Assembly (NCBI GenBank): GCA_958510825.1
Contig: OY294052.1
Span: 1,633,816 to 1,697,815 of the forward strand
Direction of reading: 5' to 3'
DNA: 64,000 nucleotides
Source of the DNA: Brachypterus glaber
Taxonomy: Eukaryota; Arthropoda; Insecta; Coleoptera; Kateretidae
Below the pieces are notes generated by a model. The model had not been told where the DNA came from and searched no databases. It worked only from the letters and a program-made list of their open reading frames with translations. A program made the position numbers and the translations under genes. Below, in pieces: positions 1,886 through 54,636 of this stretch (position 1 is the first letter of the stretch; every line of letters begins with the position of its first letter).

Positions 1886-2696
1886 CAATTAGTTACTTGT
1901 TCTATTTTGACACAACATTCGATTGGTAATTTTGGCAGCAGTTTTAATAGAAAATATTAAAAATAAGTATTAAAAATGATTTTACGTCAAGTTGGACTTT
2001 TTGGATTCCTTAACTTTGGCCTACTGCATAAAAATTGATTCTATCTACTTTATACATTTACAGCACCCCTTTTTCTCTTTTAGCTTTCTTTGGTCGTAAC
2101 TGCTAGGGCTCTATTTTAATTGGTTCCCTTGATCAAAAGTTATGGACGTCACGTGCACCCTTATTGCGAATAAAATGATTGGCCTCGCAGATTTTATTTC
2201 TTAATTTGATATAAATGATACTATGTCACAATGTTATAAAATAAAATTTGGATTATTCAAAAGTCCAACTAAATCGCCATTTTCGGATCTGTTATTTTAT
2301 TAATTTTCTTTTAATTGAATAAAGTTTTTCATAATATTTATATATTTTTCTTTGTAAATGTATTAGTTTGGTAACAAACATTTTTATAACATTATTATTA
2401 ATTTGTTCACGGCTGTGGATTTGTGACATCTGATATCTACACTGAAAAAATTTTTGCGCCGATGAACAGCTAAGGCAAGAATTTTTAAGCATCCAAATAG
2501 CTTTAAACTTCTTGCCTTTATGTATATATTAACAAATTTTATTATTTAAATTTATTTTACATTTAGACAACTAATTTTAAGCATTTATATAATAACATTT
2601 TCTTTGTGACAATTAAAAACGAACATCGGTGCAAAATCAATGTAATTTTTATTGATATCACGTAAAATGTTGGTTTGGACTTATTTATTAGCTTAC
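1886..2696. other. AT-rich non-coding DNA downstream of the PH exon donor (intron)
   Basis: This lies immediately downstream (on the minus strand) of the donor of the exon at 2697-3014, so it should be intron. It is AT-rich with no convincing exon. An acactgaaaaaa motif near 2440, also the end of several elements in this window, hints at a small decayed insertion. Confidence 0.5.
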
Positions 2697-3014
2697 CTTA
2701 GCCAGCCTCATTGCAGTCACCCAGCAGGTCCTCACTCGTTCTGAGTCGCAGGCGATGCACCTCAGTTCAGTGGCGGACGACGAGGTGGAAGAATGGGCGG
2801 ACGCGGCGAGCGGTGGAGGTTCCTGAGGGGAATCCCCGCCGCTGGAGACGATGCAAATCTCGCTCTCCGACGTGTTGTCGCTGCCGCAGGGCCGCAGACA
2901 CAAGCCCCACTCGGTGGGGGCCCGTAGTTGATTTTTGGCGTTCAGCGTGGCGTAAATATGGTAGTCGGGTAAATGAGCGAGGACCGAGAGTCCCGGTAAA
3001 TCGCCGTCTGAGAT
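2697..3014 (-). CDS. Internal exon: PH domain of a Grb7/Grb10/Grb14-type adaptor (partial gene)
   Basis: The exon encodes 106 residues in phase 0 at both ends. The minus strand shows a polypyrimidine tract and tttcag acceptor just above 3014, and an AAG|gtaagc donor just below 2697. Its reading frame has HIYATL (residues 19-24), APTEWG (32-37), a long Ser/Pro-rich loop (about 44-82), ELRC (83-86) and RTCWVTAMRLAK (95-106), which contains the invariant PH tryptophan at 98. The order APT(D/E)xGxCxKP - ELRxxC - RTCWxTAxRLxK is the hallmark of the Grb7/10/14 PH domain; vertebrate proteins continue with YG straight after the final K, so the exon end fits too. These proteins are cytosolic adaptors that join Ras-binding, PH, BPS and SH2 domains downstream of receptor tyrosine kinases. 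No other exon of the gene was recognised in the window. The alternative, an MRL (RIAM/lamellipodin/Pico) PH domain, fits less well because RTCW and APTE are Grb-like. GC content and codon use stand out from the surroundings. Confidence 0.85.
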
Positions 3015-3112
3015 CTGAAACAAAAAAAAATTAATTAGTGCAATATATAGGTATCCCTTGCCCTCCCGAGACTAAATTAATGATAATTTTTCGATTTAAT
3101 TGTGTTTTTTAT
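3015..3112 (-). other. Intron segment upstream of the PH exon
   Basis: It contains the polypyrimidine tract and AG acceptor of the exon on the minus strand; on the plus strand this is the run ctgaaacaaaaaaaaa. Nothing else is visible. Confidence 0.7.
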
Positions 3113-14872: not shown

Positions 14873-15409
14873 AGAGAAAAAATGGTTATTGTTCTAGGTG
14901 CAGAGATTTAATTTCACGGATTAAATACATTTTAAAAAAATCTTTAGATTTCTCTAATTTTCCCTTAAATTTCCGATGATAATAATAAATATTTTCAAAA
15001 CTTGGAATGTTATGTAAAAAGGCCCACAGGGAAAATTAAATGCATTTTTTTTAAATTTAATATGGACCGTAATATACCGAATTTATTTATTTAAAGTCTA
15101 CTTCAGATTCTAAATTTTCAGTAATAATAGTAACGTTATATCGCTGGATTAGCATTTATACATTTTTATCTAAATAATCATACTGTAAATATCAAAAAGC
15201 AATAGAGAAAATCGCAAAAGCATTAAAGTATGCTAATTCGCTTTAGCATGGGCGTACACTAACACACTTCCCAAAAAACATTAAACTTCATTTACATAAA
15301 CGATTTTGTTTGAAATTTATCTCGTTGATGCTGATTTCACATTTTAAACTTAATTTTTTGTTAAAAAACATTTTTTTTATACTACTGGTTTAGAATATAG
15401 ACATAGAAT
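14873..15409. other. AT-rich spacer
   Basis: No coding or RNA signal recognised between the TIR element and the retrozyme. Confidence 0.4.
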
Positions 15410-15421
15410 AAATCCATTTTA
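15410..15421 (+). repeat. Left target-site duplication of the retrozyme
   Basis: The 12-mer aaatccatttta here is repeated exactly at 16111-16122, directly flanking the element. The last two or three bases overlap the inverted arm, so 10-12 bp is the safe length. Confidence 0.8.
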
Positions 15422-15479
15422 TATAAAACATTTTACTATTCCTTAAAACGACTTTTGTTTGATTAACGCAGTCGTCCCT

Positions 15480-15534
15480 CCGAAGTGACTGATCGATTTC
15501 GTGCTTTTTAGCACTCTTCAGAGCCACATATCGG
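15480..15534 (-). ncRNA. Second hammerhead ribozyme core, minus strand
   Basis: The inverted 5' arm places a full catalytic core on the minus strand: CUGAAGA (15515-15521), helix II gugc/gcac with a uaaaaa loop (15501-15514), GAAA (15497-15500), and predicted cleavage between 15491 and 15490 after AUC. Inner helix I is present (agccac 15522-15527 with gtgact 15485-15490; tcgg 15531-15534 with ccga 15480-15483). The outer helix I of the plus-strand copy is missing because the inversion junction cuts it off, so activity may be lower. Confidence 0.7.
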
Positions 15535-15536
15535 TA

Positions 15537-15674
15537 AGTGCTAAAAAGCACGAAATCGATCAGTCACTTCGGAGGGACGACTGCGTTAATCAAACAAAAG
15601 TCGTTTTAAGGAATAGTAAAATGTTTTATATAGATTTTTTAAATTTGTAAATATCAAACAATTTAATTTAGTTT
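15537..15674 (+). repeat. Left 138-bp terminal direct repeat of the retrozyme (ribozyme 3' half only)
   Basis: Identical to 15973-16110. It begins within helix II and so lacks the upstream CUGAAGA strand; this copy cannot fold as a hammerhead alone. It retains helix II 3' strand, GAAA, the cleavage triplet AUC ending at 15561 and the 3' strand of helix I. Confidence 0.8.
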
Positions 15675-15930
15675 ATTAATTCAGATACCACTGTAAAAGG
15701 TGACCTCCTAGCGTTTAGGATTCAATTGGCGGCAATGTCCACCGTGGCATTGATTAATCTGCCCCCTATCGACAGCGTGCAATAGGTTCTTGAAACCAAT
15801 AACTGCTTCCTTTTTTGGACTGTCGATAGGTTTATCCAGTCTCTGCTTTTAGCAGTAGATGTCGCTAGCTGTTTTTGCTTTTCCTTACAACGATTTTTAA
15901 ACTCTATATAGAGATATATGGAAAGGATTT

Positions 15931-16027
15931 GATTTTCGTAGTTGTCCCTACTACCGATATGTGGCTCTGAAGAGTGCTAAAAAGCACGAAATCGATCAGT
16001 CACTTCGGAGGGACGACTGCGTTAATC
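15931..16027 (+). ncRNA. Type I hammerhead ribozyme (self-cleaving RNA)
   Basis: All conserved parts are present. Core CUGAAGA is at 15967-15973 (the CUGANGA box). Helix II gugc (15974-15977) pairs with gcac (15984-15987) around a uaaaaa loop. GAAA is at 15988-15991. Predicted cleavage follows the AUC ending at 15997. Helix I is long: gtggct (15961-15966) with agtcac (15998-16003); ccga (15954-15957) with tcgg (16005-16008); cgtagttgtccct (15937-15949) with agggacgactgcg (16009-16021); gatt (15931-15934) with aatc (16024-16027). Internal loops acta and tat/t lie where loop contacts usually form. Helix III is only the self-complementary AUCGAU, too short to close in cis, a form known from ribozymes acting as tandem or dimeric RNAs. 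Bases and pairing were read directly; activity was not tested. Confidence 0.9.
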
Positions 16028-16110
16028 AAACAAAAGTCGTTTTAAGGAATAGTAAAATGTTTTATATAGATTTTTTAAATTTGTAAATATCAAACAATTT
16101 AATTTAGTTT

Positions 16111-16122
16111 AAATCCATTTTA
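16111..16122 (+). repeat. Right target-site duplication of the retrozyme
   Basis: Exact repeat of 15410-15421 (aaatccatttta). Confidence 0.8.
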
Positions 16123-16140: not shown

Positions 16141-16166
16141 GTGTGACTATACCGGTATAGTCACAC
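16141..16166. repeat. Perfect 26-bp palindrome
   Basis: gtgtgactatacc followed directly by its reverse complement ggtatagtcacac, then a second partial echo (acggtataccgt) at about 16167-16178. It could form a cruciform or be a remnant of abutting transposon ends. Confidence 0.6.
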
Positions 16167-16243: not shown

Positions 16244-16736
16244 TAAACTGATCGAAAAAAGTTAAGGATATTTTGATTTCTCTGAGAAAAAATAATCGAA
16301 AAGACAAAAAATGTCTTATTATTTTGTTTAACTGTATTGAGCATGTCTGGGATATGCAGTAAGCAATAATTAATCGTCAACCGCATTTTTATGACGTAAG
16401 GAAACTAGCAAGTTCTTCCGGATTTATGGGATATATTGGACCAAAATCGCTTTATTTTAAGTATGCCTCGACGAGGTGAAGCGGTTATAGCCAACATAGG
16501 TAGAATTACTCGGTGTTAATTAATTTCAAGTTTTTAAAAATAATTTTTCTTTTGTTACATCAAGGAAAACATATTGTTAAATCCCGAATATAAATATTTT
16601 TGAATTGATTAAATTTATTTGTTTTTTAGAAATGATTAGAGAATATGGACATTTTATGATTTTTTTCCTAAACTGTTTTTTTTTTCGGAGAAAGCACCAT
16701 CCGTAACAATATCCTTAACTTTTTTCGATCAGTTTA
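16244..16736. mobile_element. 493-bp MITE with 29-bp terminal inverted repeats
   Basis: Left taaactgatcgaaaaaagtt then aaggatatt is mirrored at the right by aatatcctt then aacttttttcgatcagttta. The interior is AT-rich and has no ORF. The target duplication was not resolved. Confidence 0.65.
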
Positions 16737-20136: not shown

Positions 20137-20550
20137 AATGGACCTCTCTACAACTAGAATTATGAAACAAAAGACGTCTACCCTATCTCTGTCTCATTTG
20201 TGCTACACTTTCCAGCCAACCAAATAAATACTGTATTTGTTTTTCATACAACAAATACAGTATTTATTTGGTTGGCCGGAAAGTGTAGCAGTGAGCGGCA
20301 CGAACGAACATAGCTAATGTGAATCTGTAGAATAAGATAATTCTACTAAAATTTAGATGGCGCCAGTAATTTCTTTAATTAAAATAATATAGTTACACTT
20401 TTCGCCCGGCCAAGTAAATATTGTATTTGTTCAACAAAGAACAAATACAGAATTTGTTTGGTTGGGTGGAAGTGGGAGTGTATGTATGTCTTCTATCCTT
20501 TTTGGGTAGAACTTTTGTCCCTGTCTAATCTAACGGGAGAAATCTCCATT
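20137..20550 (+). mobile_element. Twin-hairpin MITE, copy 1 (414 bp)
   Basis: Two long hairpins lie side by side. The first arm, gctacactttcc then agccaaccaaataaatac, pairs with gtatttatttggttggc then cggaaagtgtagc around a short A/T loop. The second (cccggccaagtaaatattgt ... gaatttgtttggttgggtgg) is less perfect. The ends read aatgg...ccatt, a very short inverted repeat. Other copies are at 27154 (partial), 28478, 38727, 40906 and 54121. Confidence 0.75.
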
Positions 20551-28010: not shown

Positions 28011-28477
28011 AACATGCAACAAAAAATTATTTGCGTATTTAATTACATGGCTAAAAAAATTATTTCATTTTAAAATTAGCACATTTTTTATTGGGTGAAT
28101 CATTTATTTGAATTAAACAAATATATTTACTTAAACTTTTAGGTAGTATCACTGTGTAAATATAATTTTCAATTATTTTATGCAGGTTTATATTTAAAAC
28201 AATTATTGATAAAAATTTAAAAAATTCCCAACACTAATATAAGTCCAGTCAAATAATAAATGTAAAATGCAACAAATGTACACAGGCTGATATTTTAAAG
28301 GGTAGTAGTGGATGGTAACAGAACACTCCTGTTAGTTTTTCACCGAATGATTTGCGTAAGGGGTGTCCGCTATCTTGAATTTTAGGGGTGAGTTGCTTAA
28401 TATTTGCAAAAATATTGATTCCTTGAGTAAAAATATATAAAAAATGTCATATAGTTTGACACTGTGGGAGCAAATGC
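28011..28477. other. AT-rich spacer
   Basis: No feature recognised. Confidence 0.4.
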
Positions 28478-28889
28478 AATGGAGCTCTCTACAACTAGAA
28501 TTATGAAATAAAAGACGTCTACCCTATCTCTATCTCATTTGTGCTACACTTTCCAGTCAACCAAATAAATACTGTATTTGTTTTTCATACAACAAATACA
28601 GTATTTATTTGGTTGGCCGGAAAGTGTAGCACTGGGCGGCACGAACGAACATAGCTAATGTGAATCTGTAGAATAAGATAATTCTACTAAAATTTAGATG
28701 GCGCCAGTAATTTCTTTAATAAAAATAATATTTACACTTTTCGCCCGGCCAAGTAAATATTGTATTTGTTCAACAAAGAACAAATACAGAATTTGTTTGG
28801 TTGCGTGGACGTGCGAGTGTATGTATGTCTTCTATCCTTTTTGGGTAGAACTTTTGTCCCTGTCTAATCTAACGGGAGAAATCGCCATT
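28478..28889 (+). mobile_element. Twin-hairpin MITE, copy 3 (412 bp)
   Basis: Full length, aatggagctctctaca to gggagaaatcgccatt. The first hairpin is preserved apart from a single a gcc/gtc difference. The 67-codon frame here (28698-28901) recurs in other copies only because the DNA is repeated. Confidence 0.8.
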
Positions 28890-29091
28890 AAATGGAAGTA
28901 ACATTTAGAAGGCTATAACACCTTTAATATTAAATTTAAGTGTTTCGGTAAAGAATACTTTTTTGCTTAGTTTTAAATGAAGAATCGCCCTACAATATTA
29001 AAATTTTATTGGTACTTTTTTTGTCCTCCATACCAATTTAAAAAAAAAAACTCTCGCGTAGAATTTCAAGAAATAAATTTTAAATAGTATT

Positions 29092-38726: not shown

Positions 38727-39139
38727 AATGGAGATTTATCCCGTTAAATTAGACAGGGACAAAAGTTCTACCCAAAAAGGATAGAAGACATACATACACT
38801 CCCACTTCCACCCAACCAAACAAATTCTATATTTGTTCTTTGTTGAACAAATACAATATTTACTTGGCCGGGCGAAAAGTGTAACTATTTATTTTTATTA
38901 AAGAAATTACTGGCGCCATCTCAATTTTAGTAGAATTATCTTATTCTACAGATTCACATTAGCTATGTTCGTTCGTGCCGCTCACTGCTACACTTTCCGG
39001 CCAACCAAATAAATACTGTATTTGTTGTATGAAAAACAAATACAGTATTTATTTGGTTGGCTGGAAAGTGTAGCACAAATGAGATAGAGATAGGGTAGAC
39101 GTATTTTGTTTCATAATTCTAGTTGTAGAGAGCTCTATT
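38727..39139 (-). mobile_element. Twin-hairpin MITE, copy 4 (413 bp, minus)
   Basis: Full length in inverted orientation; both hairpins intact. It differs from copy 5 (40906) at only a handful of sites. Confidence 0.8.
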
Positions 39140-39476
39140 GGTTAAAACTATAAACTTTCAATATAACAGTGAATTCTTGAAGCAAGAAATTATTTAAATA
39201 TGCAATAATTCTTGGGCGGGGAAAAATTGAAAATATGGACGAAGAAAATCAATTTTTTTTTTAAATTATGGCGAAGGCGCCACTATGTAAAATATGATTT
39301 TCAACATCCATTAATTATGTAACACTAATGTCCATCTTCGAAGGGCCGCAGCTCCCTTGGGGCTCATTTCCGGACCAACCTTTATAGAAACATTTTTTTC
39401 ATATCTGTATATAAAATACAGCCGGGAAAAAATAATGAAATTAAATTTTACTATACGTAGAGCATAGACCAAGTCA
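39140..39476. repeat. Spacer with a cagggtgattc-family fragment
   Basis: 39335-39405 (cgaagggccgcagctccctt, gggctcatttccggaccaac, ctttatagaaac) matches, on the minus strand, the left arm of that family. Confidence 0.5.
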
Positions 39477-39685: not shown

Positions 39686-40905
39686 CTTGGTGTGAATGGA
39701 AGGGTTTTTAGGCTTTTTAAAAACAGTTTTTATCATACCATTTGTATGACATCATATACGTTTATGTCTGGTATTTTTTTAAAATATATAAATAGCATAC
39801 GGTTTGATTTGTAAGGATTGAAAGCTTTTTGGGGGAGAAATATGTGTTCAAGAGGTCTTGCTAAGTTTTTCTCCCGTACTTTCGACCAAGGACTAAAAAC
39901 GAATTGATTTTGAACGGTGCATTCATATGGGGTTATAGTATAAAGTAAGGGGTTTACGAGAACCAAGAAACGGAACTTCTCGTCACGATTTTCGAGAGTC
40001 TCAATTTTCGAGATAAAAAATAGGCTGATCTTGTCTTGAAAATTTGTCTTTAACTTCTTGTCTCATCTCGCGAGATTCTTGATTTACAAGACTCTCGACA
40101 TTCTGAAGGGTTGATTGACCTTAGTATCACGTGTCGAAATATTTCCAAACCAGGCAAGTTTTTATTATTGACAATGATTCTATATTTCCATATCTTTCAG
40201 ATACCTTAATGTTAGTGCACAAAAAAAAATAAAAAATATTTACCCCCTCACTCCCGTGGGGGTGGAGTTATTTTTTTTATTATCAGATTCAAATTCAGCA
40301 ACCTCAAAAACCCCTATATAGCAATTTTCGAATTTTTGTGAAAAAATATAGCATTTTTCCCATTTGCTCCATTGCCCCATCCCAATGTTTGTCAAAAACA
40401 ATCCCGAGCGAGAACTTTTGGTAACATACCTGTATGCCCAGTTTCAAGTCTCTAGCTTAAAGCGTTCTTAAGTTATCGTGCTCACAAGATTTCCCGGACC
40501 GACATTTTTTTTGCTCAAAATTGATTTGTCGGCATAAAAAGTCATAAAACGCAAAAAAAATTCAAAATTTTTGCACTTAGTTTTTGTTCTTAGTCGTATT
40601 ATTTGACAGGCTAGGTCACAACACACCACTCGAGACGAAAAAAGGAAAAAGAAGGAAAATGTTTCAATAGTGGATAATAATCTTCGAAATAATTACAAGC
40701 TAGACTAGATGAACAGTTGTAGGCATCTTACCTTATTAAAACATCGGCACTATTTTGTGTTTAATATGCAACCATTAATACACCCGCGTGTTATGTGAGT
40801 TGCACAAAAAAATAGAAAAGAAATAGAAGTTTTAAGGAGTTGCATAACATTTTTGTTTTAATTTAAAGACGCTTGCATTTGAGATATTTTATGAAATTGT
40901 TGTCC
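39686..40905. other. Non-coding spacer with repeat traces
   Basis: aaagcgttcttaagttatcgtgctc near 40460 is a lone arm of the preceding family. A tagacta-rich segment follows. The ORF at 39733-39966 has no domain. Confidence 0.4.
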
Positions 40906-41318
40906 AATAGAGCTCTCTACAACTAGAATTATGAAACAAAATACGTCTACCCTATCTCTATCTCATTTGTGCTACACTTTCCAGCCAACCAAATAAATAC
41001 TGTATTTGTGTTTCATACAACAAATACACTATTTATTTGGTTGGCCGGAAAGTGTAACACTGAGCGGCACGAACGAACATAGCTAATGTGAATCTGTAGA
41101 ATAAGATAATTCTACTAAAATTGAGATGGCGCCAGTAATTTCTTTAATAAAAATAAATAGTTACACTTTTCGCCCGGCCAAGTAAATATTGTATTTGTTC
41201 AACAAAGAACAAATATAGAATTTGTTTGGTTGGGTGGAAGTGGGAGTGTATGTATGTATTCTATCCTTTTTGGGTAGAACTTTTGTCCCTGTCTAATTTA
41301 ACGGGATAAATCTCCATT
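40906..41318 (+). mobile_element. Twin-hairpin MITE, copy 5 (413 bp)
   Basis: Full length, ccaatagagctctctac to aacgggataaatctccatt. The first hairpin has two loop or stem changes (tgtgtttcat, acactattt). Confidence 0.8.
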
Positions 41319-54099: not shown

Positions 54100-54636
54100 T
54101 GATATCGTCTATGATACTGCAATGGAGCTCTCCACAACTAGAATTATGAAACAAAAGACGTCTACCCTATCTCTATCTCATTTGTGCTACACTTTCCAGC
54201 CAACCAAATAAATACTGTATTTGTTTTTCATACAACAAATACAGTATTTATTTGGTTGACCGGAAAGTGTAGCACTGAACGGCACGAACGAACATAGCTA
54301 ATGTGAATCTGTAGAATAAGATAATTCTACTAAAATTTACATGGCGGCCAGTAATTTCTTTAATAAAAATAATATAGTTACACTTTTCGCCCGGCCAAGT
54401 AAATATTGTATTTGCTCAACAAAGAACAAATACAGAATTTGTTTGGTTGGGTGGAAGTGGGAGTGTATGTATGTGTTCTATCCTTTTTGGGTAGAACTTT
54501 TGTCAGTGTCTAATCTAACGGGAGAAATCGCCATTCCACGTATCGTCATTTGACAGAAATCTAAAAATCTGTTATTCAATAAACATTTATTTCTGTCAAA
54601 TGACAATACGCGGTATTGCAGTATCACAGACGATAT
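54100..54636. repeat. Small foldback split by a twin-hairpin MITE
   Basis: gatatcgtctatgatactgc at 54100-54119 is mirrored by tgcagtatcacagacgatat near 54616-54636, and cgtcatttgacagaaat near 54545 by atttctgtcaaatgac near 54590. The 415-bp element at 54121-54535 sits in the left arm. Aligning the two arms gives the empty site and suggests a 2-3-bp target duplication. Confidence 0.6.
54121..54535 (+). mobile_element. Twin-hairpin MITE, copy 6 (415 bp)
   Basis: Full length, aatggagctctccaca to gggagaaatcgccatt; first hairpin intact except ggttgac for ggttggc. Nested in an older foldback. Confidence 0.8.

Follow-up and report, generated by a model that had tools for sequence, protein, structure and literature searches.

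A dispersed 436-nt unit with a type I hammerhead ribozyme in Brachypterus glaber, and an insertion pattern common to it and Penelope-like elements of the same genome

The window, which is the whole 64,000-nt stretch of Brachypterus glaber DNA that was analysed, contains a 688-bp insertion at 15422-16109, composed of two arms that stand head to head and were copied from a non-coding unit of 436 nt, and a type I hammerhead ribozyme (15931-16027, plus strand) is located within it. Because the same 13-bp word is found at both flanks, the segment is most simply explained as one insertion event; no such match longer than 9 arose in about 5000 random placements. The features are as follows.

15409-15421, no strand: left copy of the 13-bp target duplication TAAATCCATTTTA, from flank comparison
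15422-15536, minus: inverted arm, outer end at unit position 69 (site A), without tail
15461-15536, minus: mirror hammerhead whose core is intact (core C 15521, C17 15491)
15537-16109, plus: direct arm of 1.3 units, outer end at unit position 112 (site B), with tail
15537-15675, plus: partial direct copy, 139 nt, spacing 436, beginning at the last A of CUGAAGA
15562-15997, plus: a single unit of 436 nt between successive cut sites (spacing 436; circular fold z -7.9)
15676-15871, plus: non-coding body of the unit, present in many genomic copies (genome search, query 15676-15930)
15872-16056, plus: long quasi-palindrome extending helix I around the ribozyme (15865-16068 folds with z -9.35)
15931-16027, plus: type I hammerhead, cut expected after 15997
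15967-15973, plus: CUGAAGA box, read directly
15974-15987, plus: helix II, GUGC(U)/(A)GCAC, 4-5 bp, read directly
15988-15990, plus: GAA, read directly
A15991 and U15996, plus: helix III, A-[UCGA]-U, read directly
15997, plus: C17, predicted cut directly 3'
16069-16109, plus: tail, at the B end and missing from the inverted A end, from arm comparison
16110-16122, no strand: right copy of the target duplication TAAATCCATTTTA, from flank comparison

The inverted copy is perfect over 117 nt (15420-15536 matches 15952-16068), and the mirror hammerhead lacks the distal 5' strand of helix I. Since the partial direct copy takes up CUGAAGA only from its last A, the ribozyme there is incomplete on that strand. 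A preliminary description of this DNA had read the hammerhead correctly, while the inverted copy at 15461-15536 and the partial direct copy at 15537-15675 were overlooked. Sub-gathering Rfam scores for the microRNA precursors MIR2619 and MIR161 (62-65 bits at 15426-15626), mir-1420 and mir-2511 coincide with the perfect inverted repeat and are likely an artefact.

Several other features were observed in the window. A perfect palindrome of 26 bp lies at 16141-16166, just beyond the right target duplication, and perfect 29-bp inverted repeats (16244-16272 and 16708-16736) enclose about 490 bp, resembling a small inverted-repeat transposon. A repeat of about 415 bp, 95-99% identical, occurs in both orientations at 20137-20550, 28472-28890, 38727-39141, 40904-41318 and 54121-54535. 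The GC-rich open segment at 2691-3071 (minus), probably a host-gene exon, matched growth factor receptor-bound proteins 10 (E 6e-7) and 14 (E 6e-5). When 30 open segments of the window were scanned against Pfam, all matches were weak and under the curated cut-offs.

The core of the type I hammerhead is complete and open at helix I. All core bases could be read directly, in agreement with the preliminary description, which had reported that no core position was missing and had named the CUGAAGA box, helix II, GAAA and the AUC cleavage triplet; C17 is at 15997. Helix I, for which more than 25 bp with internal loops had been claimed, was counted at 27 pairs in four runs (GUGGCU/AGUCAC, CCGA/UCGG, a 13-bp run and a 4-bp run) with internal loops. 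Helix III is reduced to the palindrome AUCGAU, again as earlier described, which gives one pair and a palindromic tetraloop in the monomer instead of a stable helix. A helix III of six pairs is possible only between two copies, and a dimer or tandem is therefore expected for cleavage, in line with the preliminary description. The 97-nt segment folded with a z score of -6.8, and the cleavage-competent fold was not the lowest-energy fold of a single copy, with a core-open ensemble of about 2%. Judged from the sequence, cleavage would be expected after C15997, probably as a dimer through AUCGAU.

A strict hammerhead descriptor found two motifs in the 64 kb, at 15931-16027 and at the mirror copy (core C at 15521, minus strand); 120 Markov-simulated windows yielded none, which rules out a chance motif. 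The Rfam check proposed earlier turned out otherwise, as no family reached its gathering score in the window; with relaxed thresholds, Hammerhead_HH9 scored 28.4 bits at both copies against a cut-off of 52 (E = 7.5e-5 on the plus and 7.1e-5 on the minus strand, in an 801-base search). The missed threshold is a curator's score limit and not a structural defect, and helix III of the HH9 model is longer. By itself, the ribozyme is ordinary for animal retrozymes.

The unit has 436 nt with 36.7% GC and a longest ATG frame of 16 aa, and a reading frame with reverse transcriptase and GIY-YIG endonuclease, as carried by an autonomous Penelope-like element (PLE), is absent from it. Folded as a circle, it was more stable than all of 100 shuffles (z -7.9), and the body alone showed only mild structure (z -2.7; the lowest z among 40 control windows was -2.6). 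When the genome (648 Mb, 842 contigs) was searched with the body (15676-15930), at least 44 matches were obtained, at least 40 of them full-length at 100% identity; these counts are lower bounds, since the best 40 of 1171 candidates were scored. Tandem arrays with a spacing of 436 or 437 bases were common among the matches. At 29 places, divergence from the unit of the window was 0.46% of aligned bases, and the core was intact in 76 of 81 complete hammerheads. Exact-pattern scans of viral contigs and of genome contigs gave no match. A genome search with the ribozyme part as query, by a method that passes over very common words, yielded no candidate and is therefore no measure of rarity.

The unit is thus small, non-coding and low in GC, carries a type I hammerhead in tandem, and is dispersed in copies whose target duplications exceed 4 bp, in the manner of metazoan non-LTR retrozymes. 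The family is an animal non-LTR retrozyme, dispersed and young, and this membership had not been recognised when the type I hammerhead itself was correctly named.

Insertion anatomy was analysed at 30 places (29 and the locus L039), of which 25 had two arms and five a single arm. The loci came from the body-query matches, best 40 candidates, and are biased to identical copies on contigs C1, C2 and C4 and in the window. Arms of the head-to-head insertions varied from about 0.1 to 4.5 units, and their junctions showed microhomology or a small number of filler bases. At 24 of the 29 places (the set without L039) the target duplication was exact and 11-15 bp long, and these 24 were 90% AT, compared with 69% in the window. 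In a control on the retrozyme flanks, 810 mismatched pairs averaged 5.0, with 6.3% reaching 9 and a maximum of 12, so a short duplication alone is no proof.

The outer ends fell at two sites, counted from the ribozyme cut: site A at unit positions 65-80 (median 68.5) and site B at 110-116 (median 112). All 24 measured two-arm insertions with a target duplication (the window, 22 loci and L039) had one A and one B end, with no A/A and no B/B case; under independent and equal choice the probability of this is 6e-8. The rule is established for the sample examined. The A end of L028, at unit 80, is an outlier and adjoins a run of A, and L003, L004, L018, L031, L032 and L037 were counted with further rearrangements inside them. 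The count excludes the single-arm places L001, L002, L008, L011 and L013, among which only L008 had a clear duplication (12 bp), and the two-arm L038, whose ends at 115 and 112 are both B-like and whose flanks matched over 5 bp only. L038 was read as a later duplicated chimera, because it has no real duplication and its left flank is common with L037; if it were counted as an insertion, there would be a single B/B case.

Three of the five single-arm copies (L001, L008 and L011) begin within 5 nt of the cut site, against one of 48 two-arm inner ends (Fisher p 0.0017, in a comparison devised after seeing the data). This may be a trace of ribozyme-cut templates, or of structure stopping the enzyme. 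Arms end at unit 412, the base before helix II (15537/15973 in the window), in the window, L025 and L026; a stop of the reverse transcriptase at the ribozyme stem is possible there, though the L025/L026 junction is a common one. L017 and L028 have a common arm end at unit 306 with different junctions. Two insertions about 1 kb apart, L035 and L039 (C1, about 4.977-4.980 Mb), have different target duplications. Inserts interrupt the retrozyme copies in L003 (2711-3014, palindromic) and L037 (1367-1630, its start resembling a tRNA-derived repeat by eye).

With its inverted arm, one-end tail, short target duplication and hammerhead upstream of the ends, the retrozyme has the insertion anatomy of PLEs, and it was compared with PLEs of the same genome. 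A GIY-YIG search gave 31 matches (best 150 of 419 candidates scored), several of them within long open frames with PLE-like reverse transcriptase sequence, which we take to be PLEs. Five PLE regions were extracted with wide flanks, and no Rfam match at gathering score was found in these five loci. A hammerhead descriptor lacking an extra base gave no match in the PLEs. After examples had been viewed, the descriptor was widened post hoc to allow an extra base and C or U at the first core position, and minimal hammerhead-like motifs were then found in 26 of 30 loci (L042-L071). Over L042-L076 it returned 42 rows, about 35 distinct places without overlapping loci, compared with 0.5 per strand in simulation. 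All 42 matches had one extra base between core and helix II. Their helix III palindromes were ACGU or ACUAGU, and the ACUAGU group, with U at the first core position, may be inactive.

Fifteen PLE loci were tried, which gave 12 head-to-head hammerhead pairs, 11 with a duplication and nine of these distinct (L052 equals L074, and L062 equals L073); the twelfth pair, L075, involves its internal 5' repeat. All nine distinct insertions, with head-to-head arms and duplications of 11-18 bp taken as read, had one A and one B end. The ends lay 50-68 and 82-99 nt past the cut position, with A and B about 30 nt apart. Since both follow the one-A-one-B rule, the retrozyme inserts like the PLEs of its genome.

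The whole is best read as an animal retrozyme that is non-autonomous, consists of a non-coding unit of 436 nt with a type I hammerhead, and is mobilised by Penelope-like machinery (probability about 0.75). Retrozyme RNA in multimeric or circular form would most likely be copied by a PLE reverse transcriptase, starting from the two sides of a staggered break. The hammerhead would cut multimeric transcripts, probably as a dimer through AUCGAU, and the retrozyme RNA, probably circular, would serve as template. An endonuclease would make a staggered cut of 11-15 bp in AT-rich DNA, and each of the two 3' ends could then prime reverse transcription on the retrozyme RNA, at site A for one of them and at site B for the other (about 69 and about 112 nt past the ribozyme cut). 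Two antisense cDNAs, of up to several laps, would then be joined head to head. In favour of this speak the tandem units with their identical bodies, the mostly intact cores, the target duplications, the A/B ends of retrozyme and PLE insertions alike, the hammerhead-like motifs of the PLE loci, the four variants present in every unit of both arms, and the anatomy of a Penelope insert described in PMC3846280. PLEs had been named a strong candidate for the mobilisation of retrozymes (PMC7229834) and likely candidates for moving animal retrozymes, with PLE hammerheads being minimal (PMC7761336).

Some points count against this mechanism: the Rfam gathering score was missed, the monomer is predicted mostly to adopt another fold, and clear sequence similarity between the 436-nt unit and the PLE loci was not found. 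In vitro, a PLE protein had two start sites and extended both strands, with the same start-site use on top and bottom strand (PMC11167929); the two start sites and the extension of both strands speak for the mechanism, the lack of a strand difference against it. According to the same source, a dimer is predicted, the hammerhead was active only with protein, ribozyme mutants left insertion in vitro unaffected and unprocessed RNA was the dominant substrate; the lack of effect of the mutants counts against a needed role of cleavage.

A more specific version can be put forward tentatively, at somewhat less than even odds. Each insertion would use one RNA, probably a circle, with a reverse transcriptase at each of two fixed start sites; the two enzymes would be primed from opposite sides of the staggered break and both would go round in laps, and the rule would be common to autonomous PLEs and the retrozymes using them. 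Such a model predicts one A and one B end per insertion, and variants common to all units of both arms. Among 127 variants at positions covered by at least two units (deleted columns each counted separately), 114 were in a single unit, nine in some units and four in all units. The latter, in both arms, were 384T>C in L009 (3/3), 63T>G in L015 (5/5), and 37A>G in L026 (3/3) and L028 (4/4), and they fit one circular or homogeneous multimeric RNA per insertion. Where both arms cover the position, 84 of the 89 variants were in one arm and five in both; this excess counts against a single template, and later mutation or copying errors would also produce it. The presence of 37A>G in two of five units of L025 was likewise counted against a single template. 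L025 and L026 have the same inner junction about 24 kb apart at different targets, which may reflect gene conversion or the copying of a palindromic RNA.

The head-to-head arms could instead come from one cDNA folding back and priming itself, as suggested for rotifer Penelope elements, where self-priming was inferred from palindromes at inverted junctions (PMC3846280). The junction of L032 (-99/+99) and the near-symmetric ones of L010 and L036 speak for this, as does the single junction of L025 and L026 at different targets, where a palindrome may have been copied as such. However, a simple fold-back would return the second arm to the start of the first and give equal ends, whereas the ends were unequal in 24 of 24 insertions and the majority of junctions were asymmetric, so self-priming is considered unlikely.

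Inverted arms, target duplications and tandem units would also be expected of an ordinary satellite, or of an inverted-repeat DNA transposon, whose ribozyme-like motif had decayed. Such an origin is very improbable here, since arm length ranges between 0.1 and about 4.5 units and duplication length between 11 and 15 bp, nearly all complete hammerheads have an intact core and the ends are fixed relative to the ribozyme cut; the inverted-repeat DNA transposon is rejected on the variable arms and duplications and the fixed ends. Least credible are PLE terminal repeats that captured host DNA at one site, a process described in PMC3846280 and in line with the GC content of the body (44%, against 31% in the remainder of the element), because the same body at 100% identity occurs at many loci and in tandem, and the at least 40 identical full-length copies refute a one-off capture, which may still be the ancient origin of the family.

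Retrozyme mobilisation by PLE machinery thus stands as the preferred reading, and what is new is the one-A-one-B insertion rule common to the retrozyme (24 insertions) and the co-resident PLEs (nine). The titles and abstract beginnings screened contained no statement that each insertion uses both start sites exactly once. This common and precise signature makes the question of what moves animal retrozymes testable, constrains how PLEs copy both strands, and yields a defined RNA with two start sites for an assay.

Metazoan non-LTR retrozymes are described as tandem units of 150-450 bp, non-coding and low in GC, with a type I hammerhead and without LTR, with target duplications longer than 4 bp and with circular RNA demonstrated (PMC7229834, Cervera and de la Pena 2020). 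The present unit, of 436 nt, is like them in all these characters except the circle, which is here inferred, and differs from them as described in PMC7229834 in its head-to-head arms with two fixed alternative ends. In axolotl HHR_Amex1, helix III likewise has one pair and a palindromic tetraloop, cleavage was poor alone and better as a dimer (PMC7229834), and action as a dimer is also expected here. Its unit is about 330 nt, unlike the 436 nt found here, where a long helix I of 27 pairs forms part of a larger quasi-palindrome.

In a Penelope insert, a target duplication accompanies an inverted repeat, and one repeat may carry a tail (PMC3846280). The PLEs Pen2a_Av (PMC3846280) and PAc (PMC11167929) resemble the retrozyme in the inverted arm at one end, the short target duplication, the hammerhead near the ends and the tail on one end only (31-bp), and the two reverse-transcription start sites of PAc in its two ends. 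In contrast to PLEs, the 436-nt unit encodes neither reverse transcriptase nor endonuclease. The PLE hammerheads of this genome, under the present descriptor, differ from that of the retrozyme by the extra base before helix II and, in the ACUAGU group, by U for the first core C.
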